Positions 50,112-64,000 of a DNA stretch of 64,000 bases are shown here, piece by piece. The first letter of the stretch is position 1. Each line of letters opens with the position of its first letter. The notes beneath the pieces were generated by a model. It was not told where the DNA came from and did no database searches. It worked only from the letters and a program-made list of their open reading frames with translations. The position numbers and the translations under genes are program-made. Source of the DNA: Leisingera caerulea DSM 24564. GTDB taxonomy: Bacteria > Pseudomonadota > Alphaproteobacteria > Rhodobacterales > Rhodobacteraceae. Location: positions 3,295,217 through 3,359,216 of the forward strand of contig NZ_KI421513.1 of NCBI RefSeq assembly GCF_000473325.1, in the 5' to 3' direction.

Positions 50112-50708
50112 TCAGAACTGCAGCGTGATCTTTTCCAGGTTCTGCTCCAGGCGGACGGTGCGGTTTGCTTCCTTGGCCGCCTCGGGCAGCAGCGCGAACT
50201 GGACCAGCGCGGGGGTGATTTCAGCGTTGGATGTGCCGCCGCTGACACGGGCCCACAACTCGTCATCCACATTCAGCTTGCTGCCTTCGCCCATCACGGT
50301 CCACTTGCCGTCGGCGCAGAAAATCTTGACCGTGCCGCCATAGGGCAGCGCGGATTCAAGGCACAGCGCCGCCAGCAGCGCCAGGCGTGCCTCGCTGCGG
50401 GTGCATCCCTCCAGCGGCGACCACTGGTACTTGATCCGGCCGGATTTGCTGATGTCTTCCAGCACCGAGACCACCTCGGCGCGGCCAATTTGCTGGTCGC
50501 CGGCCGCTCCGAACGCGATCCGGAAGAACCGGATGCGGGCATTGGCGTTGGCAACGCTGTCGGAGATCAGCTCCAGCTCCGGGCCCGACATGCTGCCGGC
50601 CATGCCCAGCAGCTCCAGACCGTTATTGATGGCGCCGACCGGGCTGATCAGATCATGGCAGATCCGGGACCCTACCAATGCTGCCAGATTGGCGTTATCT
50701 ACACCCAT
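50112..50708 (-). CDS. chpT: Histidine phosphotransferase ChpT
   Basis: Passes phosphate from the hybrid kinase CckA to CtrA and CpdR in alphaproteobacterial cell-cycle and motility control. The 198-residue protein has an N-terminal four-helix dimer domain with the phosphorylated His18 in RICHDLISPVGAINNGLELL. A degenerate ATPase-like C-terminal domain follows. The ATG at 50708 follows GGAGGAAG and leaves 34 bp to the divergent DUF3553 gene. In Rhodobacteraceae this relay mostly controls motility, gene transfer agent and quorum-linked traits. Confidence 0.93.
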   Translation of the reverse strand: MGVDNANLAALVGSRICHDLISPVGAINNGLELLGMAGSMSGPELELISDSVANANARIRFFRIAFGAAGDQQIGRAEVVSVLEDISKSGRIKYQWSPLEGCTRSEARLALLAALCLESALPYGGTVKIFCADGKWTVMGEGSKLNVDDELWARVSGGTSNAEITPALVQFALLPEAAKEANRTVRLEQNLEKITLQF

Positions 50709-58625: not shown

Positions 58626-58953
58626 TCTTGCAACGGCTTAGGGCGATACTTTAGCCTCTGGGCTGCGTAACGCACATCCGCAATTAACATAATTCTGATT
58701 ATAAGACACGCATACGGCTCACATCCGCCTTCTGCATCAGGCAAAGAAAAAGGCTTCCTCTGCGACAGAGGAAGCCAGTTATCACCGGTCAGGCTCCTTC
58801 ATTGACTGCCCGAAAGTATTTTCTTACCTGGGCCATCCCGGTGTTCAGAACGGGCGCACCCGTTCCTGATCCTGTGCACAGCAGGTTCGTCCTGCTTGCG
58901 GTTACTTGTTTGCGGCGCCGTCGGGGGTATGCCGGCGCCGCAGGCAGAGGTCC
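58626..58953. other. Intergenic region between tesB and nrdJ with terminator hairpins
   Basis: No gene is seen in these 328 bp. The strong nrdJ-side terminator lies at 58743-58776. A second perfect 10-bp hairpin (TGCGGCGCCG at 58911-58920 with 58933-58942) is directly after the nrdJ stop but has no T run. Confidence 0.6.
58743..58776 (-). terminator. Terminator of nrdJ (minus strand)
   Basis: A perfect 11-bp stem with a 3-nt loop (58752-58762 with 58766-58776) is followed, on the minus strand, by TTTTTCTTT. It lies about 180 bp beyond the nrdJ stop. Confidence 0.85.
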
Positions 58954-61900
58954 TCAGCTGCAGCCGGAGGTGCCCCCGCAGGTGTTGCATTTCATGCAGG
59001 TGCCGTTGCGCACCAGCGTGTAGTTGCCGCATTCGCCGCAGGCTTCGCCCTCGTAGCCTTGCATTTTTGCCTTGGTGCGTGCGTCCATGCCGCCAGTGGT
59101 TTGCGCCGGTGCGTCCGTGGTCTCCGGTACCAGTGACTGCAGCGCGGCAACCGGATCAGCTCCGGTGCCCACGGTGCCGGTTTCGGTCTGGCCGCCCTGC
59201 AGCACCACCAGTTCCTGCGGCAACCGCTTGCGCAGATAGCCGGTCGAGGAAATCTGCTTCAGCACCTCCAGCGACCGCGATGCGGCGCTTTCGCTCAGCT
59301 CCGTAACGTTGGAGACGCCTTCTTCCTCACCGCGGCCCAGATCGTCAAAGGTCGCGCCCTCGGGCTTAACATGCGCCAGATCGGTGCGGTCCAGATAGCT
59401 GACCGCCAGCTCGCGGAACACGTAGTCGAGGATCGAGGTTGCGTTCTTGATCGAGTCGTTGCCCTGGACCATGCCAGCGGGTTCGAACTTGGTGAAGGTG
59501 AAGGCGTCGACAAATTCCTCCAGCGGCACGCCGTACTGCAGGCCGACCGACACCGCGATGGCAAAGTTGTTCATCATTGCCCGGAAGCCCGCGCCTTCCT
59601 TGTGCATGTCGATGAAGATTTCGCCCAGGGTGCCGTCGGAATACTCGCCGGTGCGCAGGTACACCTTGTGGCCGCCGACAACCGCCTTCTGGGTATAGCC
59701 CTTGCGGCGCTGCGGCATCTTCTCGCGGTGGCTGCGGACCAGTTCCTTGACCACAACTTTCTCGACGATCTTCTCCGCCAGAACCGCGGCCTTTTCCTGG
59801 GTCGAACCGCTTTCCAGAATCTCCGCCGCGTCGTCGTCATCCTCGACTAGTGCCGCCGCCAGCGGCTGGCTCAGCTTGGAGCCGTCGCGGTACAGTGCGT
59901 TGGCCTTCACCCCCAGGCTCCAGCTCAGCTCATAAGCCTTCTGGCAGTCCTCGATGGTGGCCGAATTCGGCATATTGATGGTCTTGGAAATCGCACCGGA
60001 GATAAAGCTCTGGGCTGCCGCCATCATGTAAATGTGGCTATCAACACTCAGGAAACGCTTACCTTTTTTGCCGCACGGGTTCGCGCAGTCAAAGATGGCG
60101 TAATGCTCTTCCTTCAGATGCGGCGCGCCTTCCAGGGTCATGGTGCCGCAGACATGGTCATTGGCCGCGTCGATGTCCGCCTTGGTGAATCCCAGATGGC
60201 GCAGCAGGTCGAAGGTCGGATCGTTCAGCTTGGGCGCCGGGATGCCCAGCACGCCGGTGCAGAAATCTTCGCCCAGGGTCCACTGGTTGAAGACAAAGCG
60301 GATGTCAAAGGCCGATTCCAGCGCCGCGTCCACCTTGGCGAGCTCATTGGGGCCAAAGCCGTGACCGGCCAGCGACGTGTGGTTAATGCCCGGGGCATTG
60401 CCGATGGAGCCGTGGCCCACCGCATAGGAGACAATCTCCTCAATCTGGGCAGAGCTGTAGCCAAGCCCCTCCAGCGCCGACGGCACCGAGCGGTTGATGA
60501 TCTTGAAATAACCGCCGCCCGCCAGCTTCTTGAACTTCACCAGGGCAAAGTCCGGCTCGATCCCGGTGGTGTCGCAGTCCATCACCAGGCCGATGGTGCC
60601 GGTCGGTGCAATCACCGTGGTCTGCGCGTTGCGGTAGCCGTGCTTCTGACCCAGCTCCAGCGCCTCGTCCCAGGCGCTTGCGGCCAGATCGGTCAGCAGC
60701 GCATCCGGGCAGTTTGCGATGTCCAGCGGCACCGGTGTGACCGACAGTGCTTCATAACCCTCGGTGTTGCCCTTTGCAGCGTTGCGATGGTTGCGGATCA
60801 CCCGCAGCATATGGTCTGCGTTTTTCGCATAGCCCGGGAAGGCACCCAGTTCCGAGGCAATCTCGGCCGAGGTGGCATAGGCAACACCGGTCATCAGCGC
60901 GGTCAGCGCACCGCAAAGCGCCCTGCCCTCATCCGAGTCGTAACCGTAGCCCATGTTCATCAGCAGCCCGCCGATGTTGGCATAACCCAGGCCCAAGGTG
61001 CGGAAGTCATAGGAGCGCTGCGCGATTTCCTTGGACGGGAACTGCGCCATCATCACCGAGATTTCCAGCGTCAGCGTCCACAGGCGGCAGGAATGCATGA
61101 AATCATCCGCCTGGAACAGCCCGTCTTTCAGGAAGCTCAACAGGTTCAGCGACGCCAGGTTGCAGGCGGTGTCGTCCAGGAACATGTATTCCGAACAAGG
61201 GTTTGAACCGCGAATCTCACCGTCTTCCGGGCAGGTATGCCATTCGTTGACGGTGTCGTGGAACTGGATGCCCGGATCGGCGCAGGCCCAAGCCGCATGG
61301 CCGACCTTCTCCCACAGGTCGCGGGCCTTGACGGTTTTGGCGACCTTGCCGTCGGTGCGGTTGATCAGCTGCCAGTCGGCGTCCTTTTCCACCGCGTGCA
61401 GGAAGGCGTTGGTCACCCGGATCGAGTTGTTGGAGTTCTGCCCGGAGACAGAGCTGTAGGCCTCAGAGTCCCAGTCGGTGTCATAGGTCGGGAACTCGAT
61501 CGAGGTGTGGCCCTGCTTGGCGTAATCCAGCACCCGCTTGATGTAGGTTTCCGGGATCGCCACCTTCTTGGCTTGGCGGATGGCCGATTTCAGCCCGCCG
61601 TTGACCGCCGGGTCATAGGCGTCAGCCTCTGCCCCGTCCCAGCTGCGGATTGCCTCAAAAAGACCGTTCAGCATCTTTTCGTGCATCTTGGAGCCGGCCA
61701 CGATCGAGGCAACCTTCTGCTCTTCGATCACCTTCCACTGGATGAAGTCTTCGATATCCGGGTGATCGGCGTCGACGATCACCATTTTTGCTGCCCGACG
61801 GGTTGTGCCGCCTGATTTGATGGCGCCCGCCGCGCGGTCGCCGATTTTGAGGAAACCCATCAGGCCCGAGGATTTGCCGCCGCCCGACAGCGGCTCGCCT

Positions 61901-62598
61901 TCGGCGCGCAGATGGGAGAAATTGGTGCCGGTGCCGGAGCCGTATTTGAACAGCCGCGCCTCGCGCACCCACAGATCCATGATGCCGCCGTCCTTGACCA
62001 GATCGTCCGAGACAGACTGGATGAAGCAGGCATGCGGCTGCGGGTGCTCATAAGCGCTGTCCGATTTGGTCAGCTTGCCGGTCTTGTAATCGACATAGTG
62101 ATGGCCCTGCGCCGGGCCGTCGATGCCATAGGCCCAGTGCAGGCCGGTGTTGAACCACTGGGGCGAGTTCGGCGCCGAGCGCTGGGTCGCCAGCATATAG
62201 CGCATCTCGTCGTAATAGGCGCGCGCGTCCTCCTCGGAGGAGAAATAGCCGCCCTTCCAGCCCCAATAGGCCCAGGCGCCCGCCAAACGGTCGAACACCT
62301 GCTTGGAGGAGGATTCACCGCCCAGCTCCGCGCCCTTTTCCGGGACCGAACGCCACAGGAATTCCGGCACGCCCTTTTCGCGGACCTTCTTCAGGCGGGA
62401 CGGCACGCCGGCCTTGCGGAAGTACTTTTGCGCGATGACGTCGCTGGCCACCTGGCTCCAGGACGCGGGGATTTCGATGTTGTCGAGACGGAAAACGATG
62501 GTCCCGTCCGGGTTGCGGATTTCCGACGTGGCCGAGACAAAGGCCAGATCGGCATAGGCATCCTGTCCGGGTTTGGTGAATTTCCGTTCGATCTTCAT
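58954..62598 (-). CDS. nrdJ: Vitamin B12-dependent ribonucleotide reductase (class II)
   Basis: Reduces ribonucleotides to deoxyribonucleotides using adenosylcobalamin, with or without oxygen. The 1214-residue protein starts [20 protein letters not shown]. It includes the substrate/active-site region [19 protein letters not shown] and the radical-site region NPCSEY. The thiyl-radical loop ATGTIGL is here [16 protein letters not shown]. The C-terminal end is Cys-rich ([31 protein letters not shown]). The long alpha/beta form is usual in alphaproteobacteria. It depends on a B12 supply. No cobalamin riboswitch was found upstream. Confidence 0.96.
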
Positions 62599-62843
62599 GC
62601 TTTGCCCCTTCTCAAGCACTCGTCGTTCATGTGTCGCGGTGCCCCCGCACCATCCAGCCCCGGCTGCAGAACACACGAACAATCCTGCGTCCGCCGCATT
62701 TGGCGCACCCGAGGCCCTCGCCGGCCATTCTCCCAGGACTGTGTGCTGTTTTTCAGCGTTGTTGCTGCGGCTCTGAAACCCACCAGATTTAGTGCCACCA
62801 CAACCGGTGAACACAATTTGGCGTATTCTGACACAAGGGGTCA

Positions 62844-62858
62844 ACGTAAAATTTACGT
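62844..62858. promoter_or_regulatory. Perfect palindrome upstream of nrdJ
   Basis: ACGTAAA-A-TTTACGT is a perfect 7-bp inverted repeat around a central A. It lies about 246 bp upstream of the nrdJ start, next to a TTGACC element (minus strand), and could be an operator. Confidence 0.45.
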
Positions 62859-63079
62859 CTTGGAAAGGATCTTTGCTGTTGACGCTTTCTGCGGTTTGCA
62901 GGGTCCGGCGAACCGCTTCGATTCATCCACAGGCCGTCTCTGTTTCTGCTGCGTCAGGCGGTCTTTGGAGGACCCCGAATTTCTATTGTCAGGCGAGTGA
63001 CTTGCCGACTTGAAAGCGAAACCTGGCACCCGGGAATGCCGGGCTGTGACAGGATTCCGTCAACATATGCGGGGATGGA

Positions 63080-63123
63080 AACGCCGAAGGGCGTTAACGG
63101 TTGGATTACCGTGCGGTAACGCC
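63080..63123. other. Two mutually exclusive hairpins
   Basis: GGCGTT at 63090-63095 can pair with AACGCC just before it (63080-63085, GAAG loop). It can instead pair, as part of a 12-bp stem, with ACCGT (63108-63112) and TAACGCC (63117-63123). Such competing pairings are typical of attenuators, but the transcript and its direction are unknown. Confidence 0.4.
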
Positions 63124-63182
63124 GCTACCCCAGCGGCACCTGCGCCGCAATTAACCTTTTGATGCGCCTCCGCGACAAGTCA

Positions 63183-63219
63183 TTAAAGAAGCCTTAACAG
63201 AGTGTTAAGAAAGCATTAA
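63183..63219. promoter_or_regulatory. Phased array of four TTAA sites (candidate tandem CtrA operator)
   Basis: TTAA occurs at 63183, 63194, 63205 and 63216. Each is separated from the next by exactly 7 bp, making three overlapping copies of the TTAA-N7-TTAA CtrA consensus. The 11-bp period places all sites on one face of the helix. It lies between nrdJ and tRNA-Pro. Confidence 0.6.
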
Positions 63220-63322
63220 CACCATAGATTGCATCAATGGAAAATCGCTCGCGCAATGCGAGAAACGATTCTCGCAGCAGTGCCTGATCAGCAAAGAGCC
63301 ACCGCGAGTTATGAGAGTGGAG

Positions 63323-63399
63323 TGGTCGGGGCGGCGAGATTCGAACTCACGACCCCCTGTACCCAAAACAGGTGCGCTACCAGACTGCGCCACGCCCCG
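63323..63399 (-). tRNA. tRNA-Pro (anticodon TGG)
   Basis: On the minus strand acceptor CGGGGCG pairs with CGCCCCG, followed by A and encoded CCA (63323-63325). The anticodon loop TTTGGGT between CCTGT and ACAGG gives UGG. The 77-nt length and the GTTCGAATC T arm are standard. Confidence 0.96.
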
Positions 63400-63442
63400 G
63401 ACCGTGCGCCTTCCTATCTCCGGCGGATGGATTTGAAAACCC

Positions 63443-63919
63443 CTAACAGGGCCAAACTGCGCCACTGCGCGAAAAAATTTGGTGCCGCATCTGAGTGCCC
63501 GCCGAAATGCCGTAACGGCGGGCCAGCCCGCCGTTTATTTCCAGCACCGCAAACACCCGGTTGCCGCCGGGGATCGGGGTCAGATCCCCAGGCACAGCGT
63601 TTTCGTGAACCGATGTCACCCGGCCCAGCTCATCCAGGAATATGATGTCCAAGGGGATAAGTGTGTTTTTCATCCAGAAGGCGGCCGGCTGGGGCTGATC
63701 GTACACAAACAGCATCCCTGCCCCGCGCGGCAGCTCCTCGCGGAACATAAGGCCCTGCGCCCGTTCTGCTTCGCTGTCGGCGATTTCCACCTCAAATGCG
63801 GCCTGCCCCCAGGCACCGCGCAGGTCGACCCGGTCCGGCGCGCAGTCCGCTGCCAGGGCCGGGGCGGCCCAAAAGGTCAAGGCGGCGCACCAGCTCAGCG
63901 GAACCAGGCGCCGTTCCAT
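63443..63919 (-). CDS. DUF192 family exported protein
   Basis: The 158-residue protein has a signal peptide (about 1-24, ending ALAAD) and then the DUF192 fold. Motifs are FEVEIADSEAERAQGLMFREELPRGAGMLFVYDQPQPAAFWMKNTLIPLDIIFLDELGRV. The trio of MF, WMKNT and PLDIIF is diagnostic. The function of DUF192 is unknown. It follows the cold-shock protein gene by 4 bp, a conserved pair in this family of bacteria. Confidence 0.92.
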   Translation of the reverse strand: MERRLVPLSWCAALTFWAAPALAADCAPDRVDLRGAWGQAAFEVEIADSEAERAQGLMFREELPRGAGMLFVYDQPQPAAFWMKNTLIPLDIIFLDELGRVTSVHENAVPGDLTPIPGGNRVFAVLEINGGLARRYGISAGTQMRHQIFSRSGAVWPC

Positions 63920-63923
63920 TGTA

Positions 63924-64000
63924 TCAGTCCGTGCCGCCGGACATCAGCGCGGCTTCCCAGGCCAGCACTTCCACCGCCATGCGGCCGCGTTTGCCGTCGA
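63924..64000 (-). CDS. Two-domain cold-shock protein, C-terminal end (rest outside window)
   Basis: Only the last 25 codons are present: DGKRGRMAVEVLAWEAALMSGGTD. This matches the end of the roughly 180-residue double cold-shock-domain protein that precedes DUF192 genes in Rhodobacteraceae. The CSD motifs themselves are outside the window, so the call rests on the tail and on the neighbour. Confidence 0.6.
   Translation of the reverse strand, partial: DGKRGRMAVEVLAWEAALMSGGTD

Follow-up and report, generated by a model that had tools for sequence, protein, structure and literature searches.

CtrA is a response regulator of the OmpR type, a family in which tandem sites spaced by 10-11 bp are a general habit. 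Its described signature is a pair of TTAA half-sites seven nucleotides apart (N7), a spacing of N6 being also reported (PMC7232146, PMC6180460, PMC7200025) and accepted (PMC6180460, PMC11264516), and the motif of Rhodobacterales reads TTAAC-N5-GTTAAC (PMC7232146). Activating CtrA sites are described near -35 and repressing half-sites at -10 (PMC6180460). In Rhodobacterales, CtrA sites have been reported at cckA, divL and flagellar genes (PMC4046655, PMC2877005, PMC6473078), and the genes of the CtrA relay are terminus-proximal (PMC8116508). Tandem CtrA half-sites are also a known kind of arrangement, as at the Agrobacterium ctp promoter with its six half-sites (PMC11264516). In Caulobacter pilA, additional CtrA sites farther upstream increase affinity, yet expression becomes lower and later; activity was lowest with three artificial copies at a packing of 6 bp (PMC11264516).

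The locus described here, four TTAA upstream of nrdJ in Leisingera caerulea, shares half-site and spacing with the full CtrA sites of Caulobacter (TTAA-N7-TTAA) and Rhodobacterales (TTAAC-N5-GTTAAC), and CtrA and ChpT are encoded in the genome. As a putative operator it differs from them by four contiguous half-sites in phase, which form three overlapping full sites far from the start codon. The Caulobacter chromosomal origin, which is bound by CtrA and DnaA and has an IHF site, also combines CtrA-type, IHF-like and DnaA-type sites in one gap; our gap, in contrast, lies in the terminus region, has one DnaA-like word, and its TTAA pairs follow nrdJ. Caulobacter nrdA and nrdB encode a class I ribonucleotide reductase (RNR), whereas nrdJ is of class II and has a CtrA-type array in addition. 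DnaA, GANTC and NrdR inputs, predicted in the case of nrdJ, are common to these RNR genes: Caulobacter nrdB is under direct DnaA control (PMC3193534); nrdA expression drops in a ccrM mutant, and the gene is assigned to the DnaA regulon but not to that of CtrA (PMC3973325 Table 1); and NrdR is described as the repressor of RNR in that species (PMC12186491). The pilA and ctp promoters are similar in having several CtrA half-sites upstream of one gene; here, however, the spacing is exactly 11 bp, unlike the irregular one of pilA, the target would be an RNR gene, and the array is farther from it (PMC11264516).

We found no report of nrdJ as a CtrA target in the open-access literature searched. Term searches of the main texts of CtrA papers (PMC4046655, PMC7232146, PMC4433202, PMC2877005, PMC6473078, PMC7200025) returned no nrd gene, and those in PMC12363192 and PMC4433202 gave no match. 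What appears to be new is that a genus has retained four contiguous half-sites in exact phase upstream of an RNR gene, in company with DnaA-type, GANTC and NrdR elements.

The TTAA array and its neighbours in the nrdJ gap

The window, the whole stretch of 64,000 nucleotides that was analysed, holds TTAA at 63183, 63194, 63205 and 63216, that is, three overlapping TTAA-N7-TTAA sites within 37 bp, and a fifth TTAA nearby (63151-63154). A gap of 724 bp separates tRNA-Pro from nrdJ, and the array sits in it at 585-621 bp from the nrdJ start codon; both genes are read leftwards, which places it downstream of tRNA-Pro and upstream of nrdJ (Table 1). No other TTAA-N7-TTAA site occurs in the 64 kb, and 100 dinucleotide shuffles of the window gave 0.09 sites on average and one at most, three being reached in 0/100. 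From the 49 TTAA of the 64 kb, about 2e-8 such arrays would be expected in the window, assuming independent TTAA positions. Over the whole genome (5,344,419 bases), runs of at least three TTAA-N7 units were found at the array only, and the reversed-pattern control gave none. A sequence-only reading of this DNA had described the four phased half-sites as an uncommon tandem CtrA operator with chpT in the same window; the coordinates and chpT are both borne out. As a side observation, one of the remaining N7 sites in the genome, at C7:2745468-2745482 (L114), repeats the central 15-mer of the array, TTAACAGAGTGTTAA on the plus strand; it precedes one reading frame and follows another that is cvpA-like (gene name from reading).

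Table 1. Coordinates of the features at and around the nrdJ gap, in window positions.
Feature	Position	Strand	Basis
chpT (HPTransfase domain), CtrA-relay phosphotransferase	50139..50480	-	97.2 bits
dif-like 28-mer GTGTCTTATAATCAGAATTATGTTAATT, just past the nrdJ 3' end	58682-58709	-	unique in genome, allowing up to 1 mismatch to core pattern
nrdJ, vitamin B12-dependent (class II) ribonucleotide reductase	58954..62598	-	NF005736, 2215.5 bits, cut-off 1737
NrdR-box-like sequence 2, GCACTAAATCTGGTGG	62780..62795	-	NrdR consensus; NrdR-like boxes enriched in the family
NrdR-box-like sequence 1 (weaker)	62811..62826	-	NrdR consensus
Predicted nrdJ promoter GTTGACC-N17-CCAAAT	62816..62845	-	conservation and overlap with NrdR-like boxes
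Invariant word CTGTGGATGAATC: DnaA-box-like TGTGGATGA overlapping CcrM-type GANTC	62920..62932	-	20/20 genus genomes
Conserved block after the array (nrdJ sense), C-R-T-C-A-N5-TTA, holding the fifth TTAA	63151..63168	-	18/20 genus genomes
Four-TTAA array, exact 11-bp spacing	63183..63219	-	nrdJ sense: half-site 1 = 63216-63219, half-site 4 = 63183-63186
Central pair TTAAC-N5-GTTAA of the array	63194..63208	-	Rhodobacterales CtrA motif TTAAC-N5-GTTAAC minus a match at the last base
tRNA-Pro (TGG), upstream neighbour, same direction	63323..63399	-	

Several conserved elements separate the array from nrdJ. The block that follows the array was compared with the IHF consensus, WATCARNNNNTTR: the strict consensus was found in 0/20 genus genomes and the relaxed CRTCA-N5-TTA in 18/20, with C in place of W at the first consensus base in all 18, so that the block may be called weakly IHF-like. 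Upstream of nrdJ in the family, the IHF consensus is weakly enriched at best (6 matches versus 1.8-2.7). Some 250 bp further on, CTGTGGATGAATC is identical in the 20 aligned genomes, and its core TGTGGATGAATC is also present in G005. The DnaA-box-like TGTGGATGA, one mismatch away from the DnaA 9-mer TGTGGATAA, occurs in 21/21 genus genomes and is the one DnaA-like word found in the gap; a putative DnaA box, as sought at an RNR promoter, is present upstream of nrdJ. The two NrdR-box-like sequences, called with the NrdR consensus, form the pair sought at the predicted promoter. We infer that the conserved TTGACC and these boxes mark the main nrdJ promoter; a sigma-70 consensus scan reported neither this promoter nor a terminator-like site. 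The array lies about 340 bp upstream of this predicted NrdR-controlled promoter.

Other structures of the gap are recorded here in their own right. The nrdJ leader (62599-62800, minus strand) is highly conserved in the genus, with a consensus fold of -64 kcal/mol over 19 sequences (5/61 pairs double-changed) and, in the hairpin at 62638-62651, a U-A to C-G exchange in 3/19 sequences; it had no Rfam match. An inverted repeat at 63257-63283 (minus strand), between tRNA-Pro and the array, is a possible tRNA 3' element, yet the scan reported no terminator-like site; around it most genus genomes have two GANTC words about 30 bp apart. A plus-strand sigma-70-like match overlapping the array (63216-63245; 9/12, shuffles mean 0.4) was set aside because most of its length covers DNA of low conservation (mean identity 0.53 next to the array).

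Conservation in the genus and in the family

The genus set comprised 21 Leisingera-like genomes. At the nrdJ gap, all four half-sites are retained in 15 of them, three perfect ones in five (G002, G003, G007, G019 and G020) and one in G005, whose 723-bp gap, reached by a search with nrdJ, has half-site 4 as its only half-site but still contains the block after it and the DnaA-like/GANTC word. Each of the 15 genomes has exactly one perfect four-unit array in its whole sequence, always within a tRNA-Pro/nrdJ gap of 722-726 bp; the reversed pattern was found in none of the 21. With G005 excluded, TTAA is intact at half-sites 1-4 in 17, 19, 19 and 20 of the 20 aligned genomes, for which mean pairwise identity is 0.957 in the half-sites, 0.562 in the spacers and 0.480 in variable gap DNA. 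Among placements of four 11-bp-spaced tetramers in the first 400 columns of the gap, the array is the best conserved. The half-sites have been kept by selection while spacers and surrounding DNA drifted, and this is the footprint left by a protein that contacts TTAA at each 11-bp turn. The sequence-only reading had counted a lack of conservation in close relatives among the findings that would refute it; this does not apply, as at least three half-sites are kept in 20/21 genomes, G005 having only one. The loss in G005 indicates that the array is not indispensable; G005 is a natural loss variant, and the five genomes with three half-sites are natural variants of a milder kind.

Within the best 80 of 597 loci, which were fetched, Leisingera sp. 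ANG-M7 (L072), a member of the genus of the window, has the nrdJ closest to ours (95%). Its gap is also 724 bp long, with TTAA at the same five offsets and most of the intervening sequence different, and its array is identical to that of G018. A DNA-level search with the gap matched 6/61 relatives, all six within the 21 genus genomes, since the gap diverges fast.

To place the array in the family Rhodobacteraceae, we used these best 80 of 597 confirmed nrdJ loci, one of which (L037) has only 546 bp upstream of nrdJ. Words were counted in the 500 bp upstream of nrdJ (40 kb) and, for comparison, in 234 further gaps that these loci contain (59 kb, of similar GC); the Leisingera array, more than 500 bp upstream of nrdJ, falls outside these density counts. 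Perfect DnaA 9-mers number 23 in 22 of the best 80 loci (shuffles mean 0.2), a density of 0.575/kb versus 0 in the other gaps. NrdR-like boxes in their strict pattern are present in 46 of the best 80 (shuffles 0.0), with 1.2/kb versus 0. GANTC has 160 matches in 79 of the best 80 (4.0/kb versus 1.3/kb), a modest excess over the mean of 129.6 and the maximum of 156 obtained when this upstream DNA is dinucleotide-shuffled. TTAA pairs follow the same trend, with 10 matches (0.250/kb) versus 2 (0.034/kb) for N7 and 6 (0.150/kb) versus 1 (0.017/kb) for N6, whereas the control spacings N5 (1 versus 2), N8 (1 versus 0) and N9 (1 versus 1) stay at or below 0.034/kb on either side and the control word CTNAG reaches 1.8/kb versus 2.2/kb.

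Of the best 80 of 597 loci, 12 have an N6 or N7 pair within 700 bp upstream of nrdJ, and 11 of these 12 belong to other genera than the window. The CtrA input, if real, would be lineage-specific, since the other 68 of these best 80 loci have no such pair within that distance. Under strict definitions, NrdR box, DnaA core and GANTC at -270 to -380 occur jointly in 25 of the best 80, and jointly with a TTAA pair in five. DnaA, GANTC and NrdR inputs thus appear widespread at nrdJ and a CtrA-type input present in some lineages, this last input seeming most elaborate in the Leisingera genus among the loci seen (best 80 of 597). At least five of 20 sequences inspected (window and 19 loci) have a distal second NrdR-like box at about -390 to -490.

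Four-unit TTAA-N7 arrays were found in 7/394 family genomes, including our own, and the reversed pattern in 5, in DNA where AATT is 2.6 times as frequent as TTAA. Such arrays are not exclusive to nrdJ, since the six others adjoin genes that are not nrdJ. In three other genera (L158, L161 and L163) the neighbouring gene is of the MshEN type, although its L158 match scores under the Pfam cut-off, and in L161 and L163 it also has a glycosyltransferase domain; it is perhaps another recurrent tandem CtrA-type target. In another genus (L162) the array stands just downstream of a lytic transglycosylase (SLT) gene, and our own genome (L129) has a single TTAA-N7-TTAA at the corresponding place. G002 and G005 (L127 and L119) have a three-unit array with C-rich spacers at another shared locus, the 3' end of a formyltransferase-like frame (gene name from reading).

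Candidate readers and competing explanations

CtrA is encoded in the genome (NF045991, 433.7 bits for a cut-off of 350), where 42 response-regulator-like stretches match the CtrA model, one of them above the cut-off. Its relay is also present, with ChpT and a gene for a CckA-type kinase, a 501-aa fragment that best matches CckA models and is below their full-length cut-offs. N7 is the favoured TTAA spacing genome-wide, with 25 of the 72 pairs from N4 to N11 (three in the array) versus 23/206 for AATT. We inspected the reading frames next to each of the 22 N7 sites that lie elsewhere than in the array. Such sites immediately precede motB (MotB plug domain) and the CckA-type kinase gene; a third is upstream of a PAS protein gene, possibly divL, and a fourth adjoins a gene for a lytic transglycosylase. 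Few were recognised as likely CtrA targets, and most of the others had no obvious CtrA link by reading. The solved structures listed as matches to E 1e-20 include the CtrA receiver domain (4qpj), and none of those listed is labelled as a CtrA-DNA complex. Because CtrA and ChpT are encoded, N7 is favoured genome-wide and TTAA pairs recur upstream of nrdJ, CtrA is, on these sequence grounds, the best candidate reader of the array.

The array is probably a remote operator for phosphorylated CtrA within the nrdJ control region, and nrdJ is its likely target. Of the sequence-only reading, the conserved CtrA-type half-sites, the encoded CtrA and ChpT and the association with nrdJ held up, but not a promoter-proximal location: with respect to the -35/-10 rule, the array is far from any recognised promoter, and the scan showed no minus-strand promoter beside it. 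The same reading had proposed control of something near nrdJ or tRNA-Pro, or of an undetected small transcript. We rejected tRNA-Pro as a target, since this gene points toward the array and its 3' end lies 103 bp short of it. A conserved structured RNA after the array was also rejected: only the tRNA was above the Rfam gathering score in 62000-64000, and the sequence from the array to the DnaA-like word has no conserved fold (-2.2 kcal/mol, 1/12 pairs double-changed, 19 sequences) and no covariation.

CtrA on half-sites 3-4 could instead activate a distal promoter just past the array, whose product would be either another, longer nrdJ transcript or a small RNA without structure. Even G005, where half-sites 1-3 are lost, has retained the last half-site and the block behind it, and activating CtrA sites are described near -35 (PMC6180460). 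Such a promoter is nevertheless unlikely, with no convincing -10-like hexamer at the right distance, no minus-strand promoter in the scan of 62500-63500, the 150-200 bp past the block among the most variable DNA of the gap and, as given above, no conserved RNA structure there. That a different TTAA-reading regulator, such as another OmpR-family response regulator, occupies the array seems distinctly improbable, even if the 42 matches to the CtrA model, one above the cut-off, provide candidates and tandem 10-11-bp spacing is general in the OmpR family: TTAA-N7 is the described signature of CtrA (PMC7232146, PMC6180460, PMC7200025), and N7 sites of the genome stand at the CckA-type kinase gene and motB.

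The surroundings of nrdJ also raise the question of a chromosome-terminus element, acting in segregation or nucleoid organisation instead of transcription. Sampled at 19 stretches of contig C7, GC skew is on the whole positive between 1.4 and 3.165 Mb and otherwise negative (except at 0.2 Mb, positive, and 2.8 Mb, slightly negative). It becomes positive at about 1.2-1.4 Mb and switches back to negative between 3.165 and 3.36 Mb, the interval that contains the window. Within the window, which belongs to the terminus region, cumulative GC skew peaks at 56-58 kb. A replication origin was rejected by position, as the skew turns negative at the locus and dnaA is at 1.13 Mb. The location at the skew sign change, the single four-unit copy per genome in 15/21 genus genomes and the dif-like site at the nrdJ 3' side, 4.5 kb from the array, in 15/18 genus genomes examined (all but G007, G009 and G015) would suit such an element. 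However, TTAA pairs upstream of nrdJ outside the genus have no dif-like site nearby: apart from L072, the threshold was reached at none of the family loci (79 examined, with about 5 kb of DNA on either side and less at contig ends). We hold a terminus element to be highly improbable because the array follows nrdJ, not dif. Chance, that is, a functionless cluster of AT-rich words, is favoured by TTAA being commoner in AT-rich gaps than in coding DNA; it was rejected, with a negligible probability, from the shuffles and the minute expectation in the window, the uniqueness in the genome, the footprint and the retention of at least three half-sites in nearly all genus genomes despite diverged spacers.

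Proposed control of nrdJ and its meaning

Under the preferred CtrA operator, CtrA would load one subunit per 11-bp turn, four subunits lying on one face of the helix, and this loading would give a steep, high-affinity occupancy at high CtrA~P. The IHF-like block may help to bend the DNA, so that the complex could reach the nrdJ promoter about 340 bp downstream, where the DnaA-box/GANTC element and the NrdR boxes would also act. CtrA binding, oligomer loading, looping and the choice of target promoter are what we infer here. Expression of nrdJ would be kept low or postponed in cells with high CtrA~P until replication is licensed, and the resulting dNTP supply would follow the cell cycle. Given a CtrA operator, we lean slightly toward a repressing or delaying effect; activation by CtrA at nrdJ, or a distal promoter, is possible. 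In Caulobacter, G1 is reported to become longer when dNTP levels are raised, through a CtrA-independent route (PMC12186491), and a CtrA strip damping nrdJ in CtrA~P-high cells would fit this dNTP/G1 logic.

More tentatively, and with rather less than even confidence, we suggest that nrdJ of Rhodobacteraceae is a cell-cycle integrator on which CtrA, DnaA, CcrM and NrdR converge, and that in Leisingera-like genomes a four-subunit CtrA strip acting over about 340 bp may make dNTP supply a direct output of the CtrA phosphorelay. The nrdJ control region is compact and conserved. CtrA is known in Rhodobacterales for motility, gene transfer agents, quorum sensing and SOS links; if the proposal is true, a direct line from CtrA to an RNR gene would tie it to DNA precursor supply as well.
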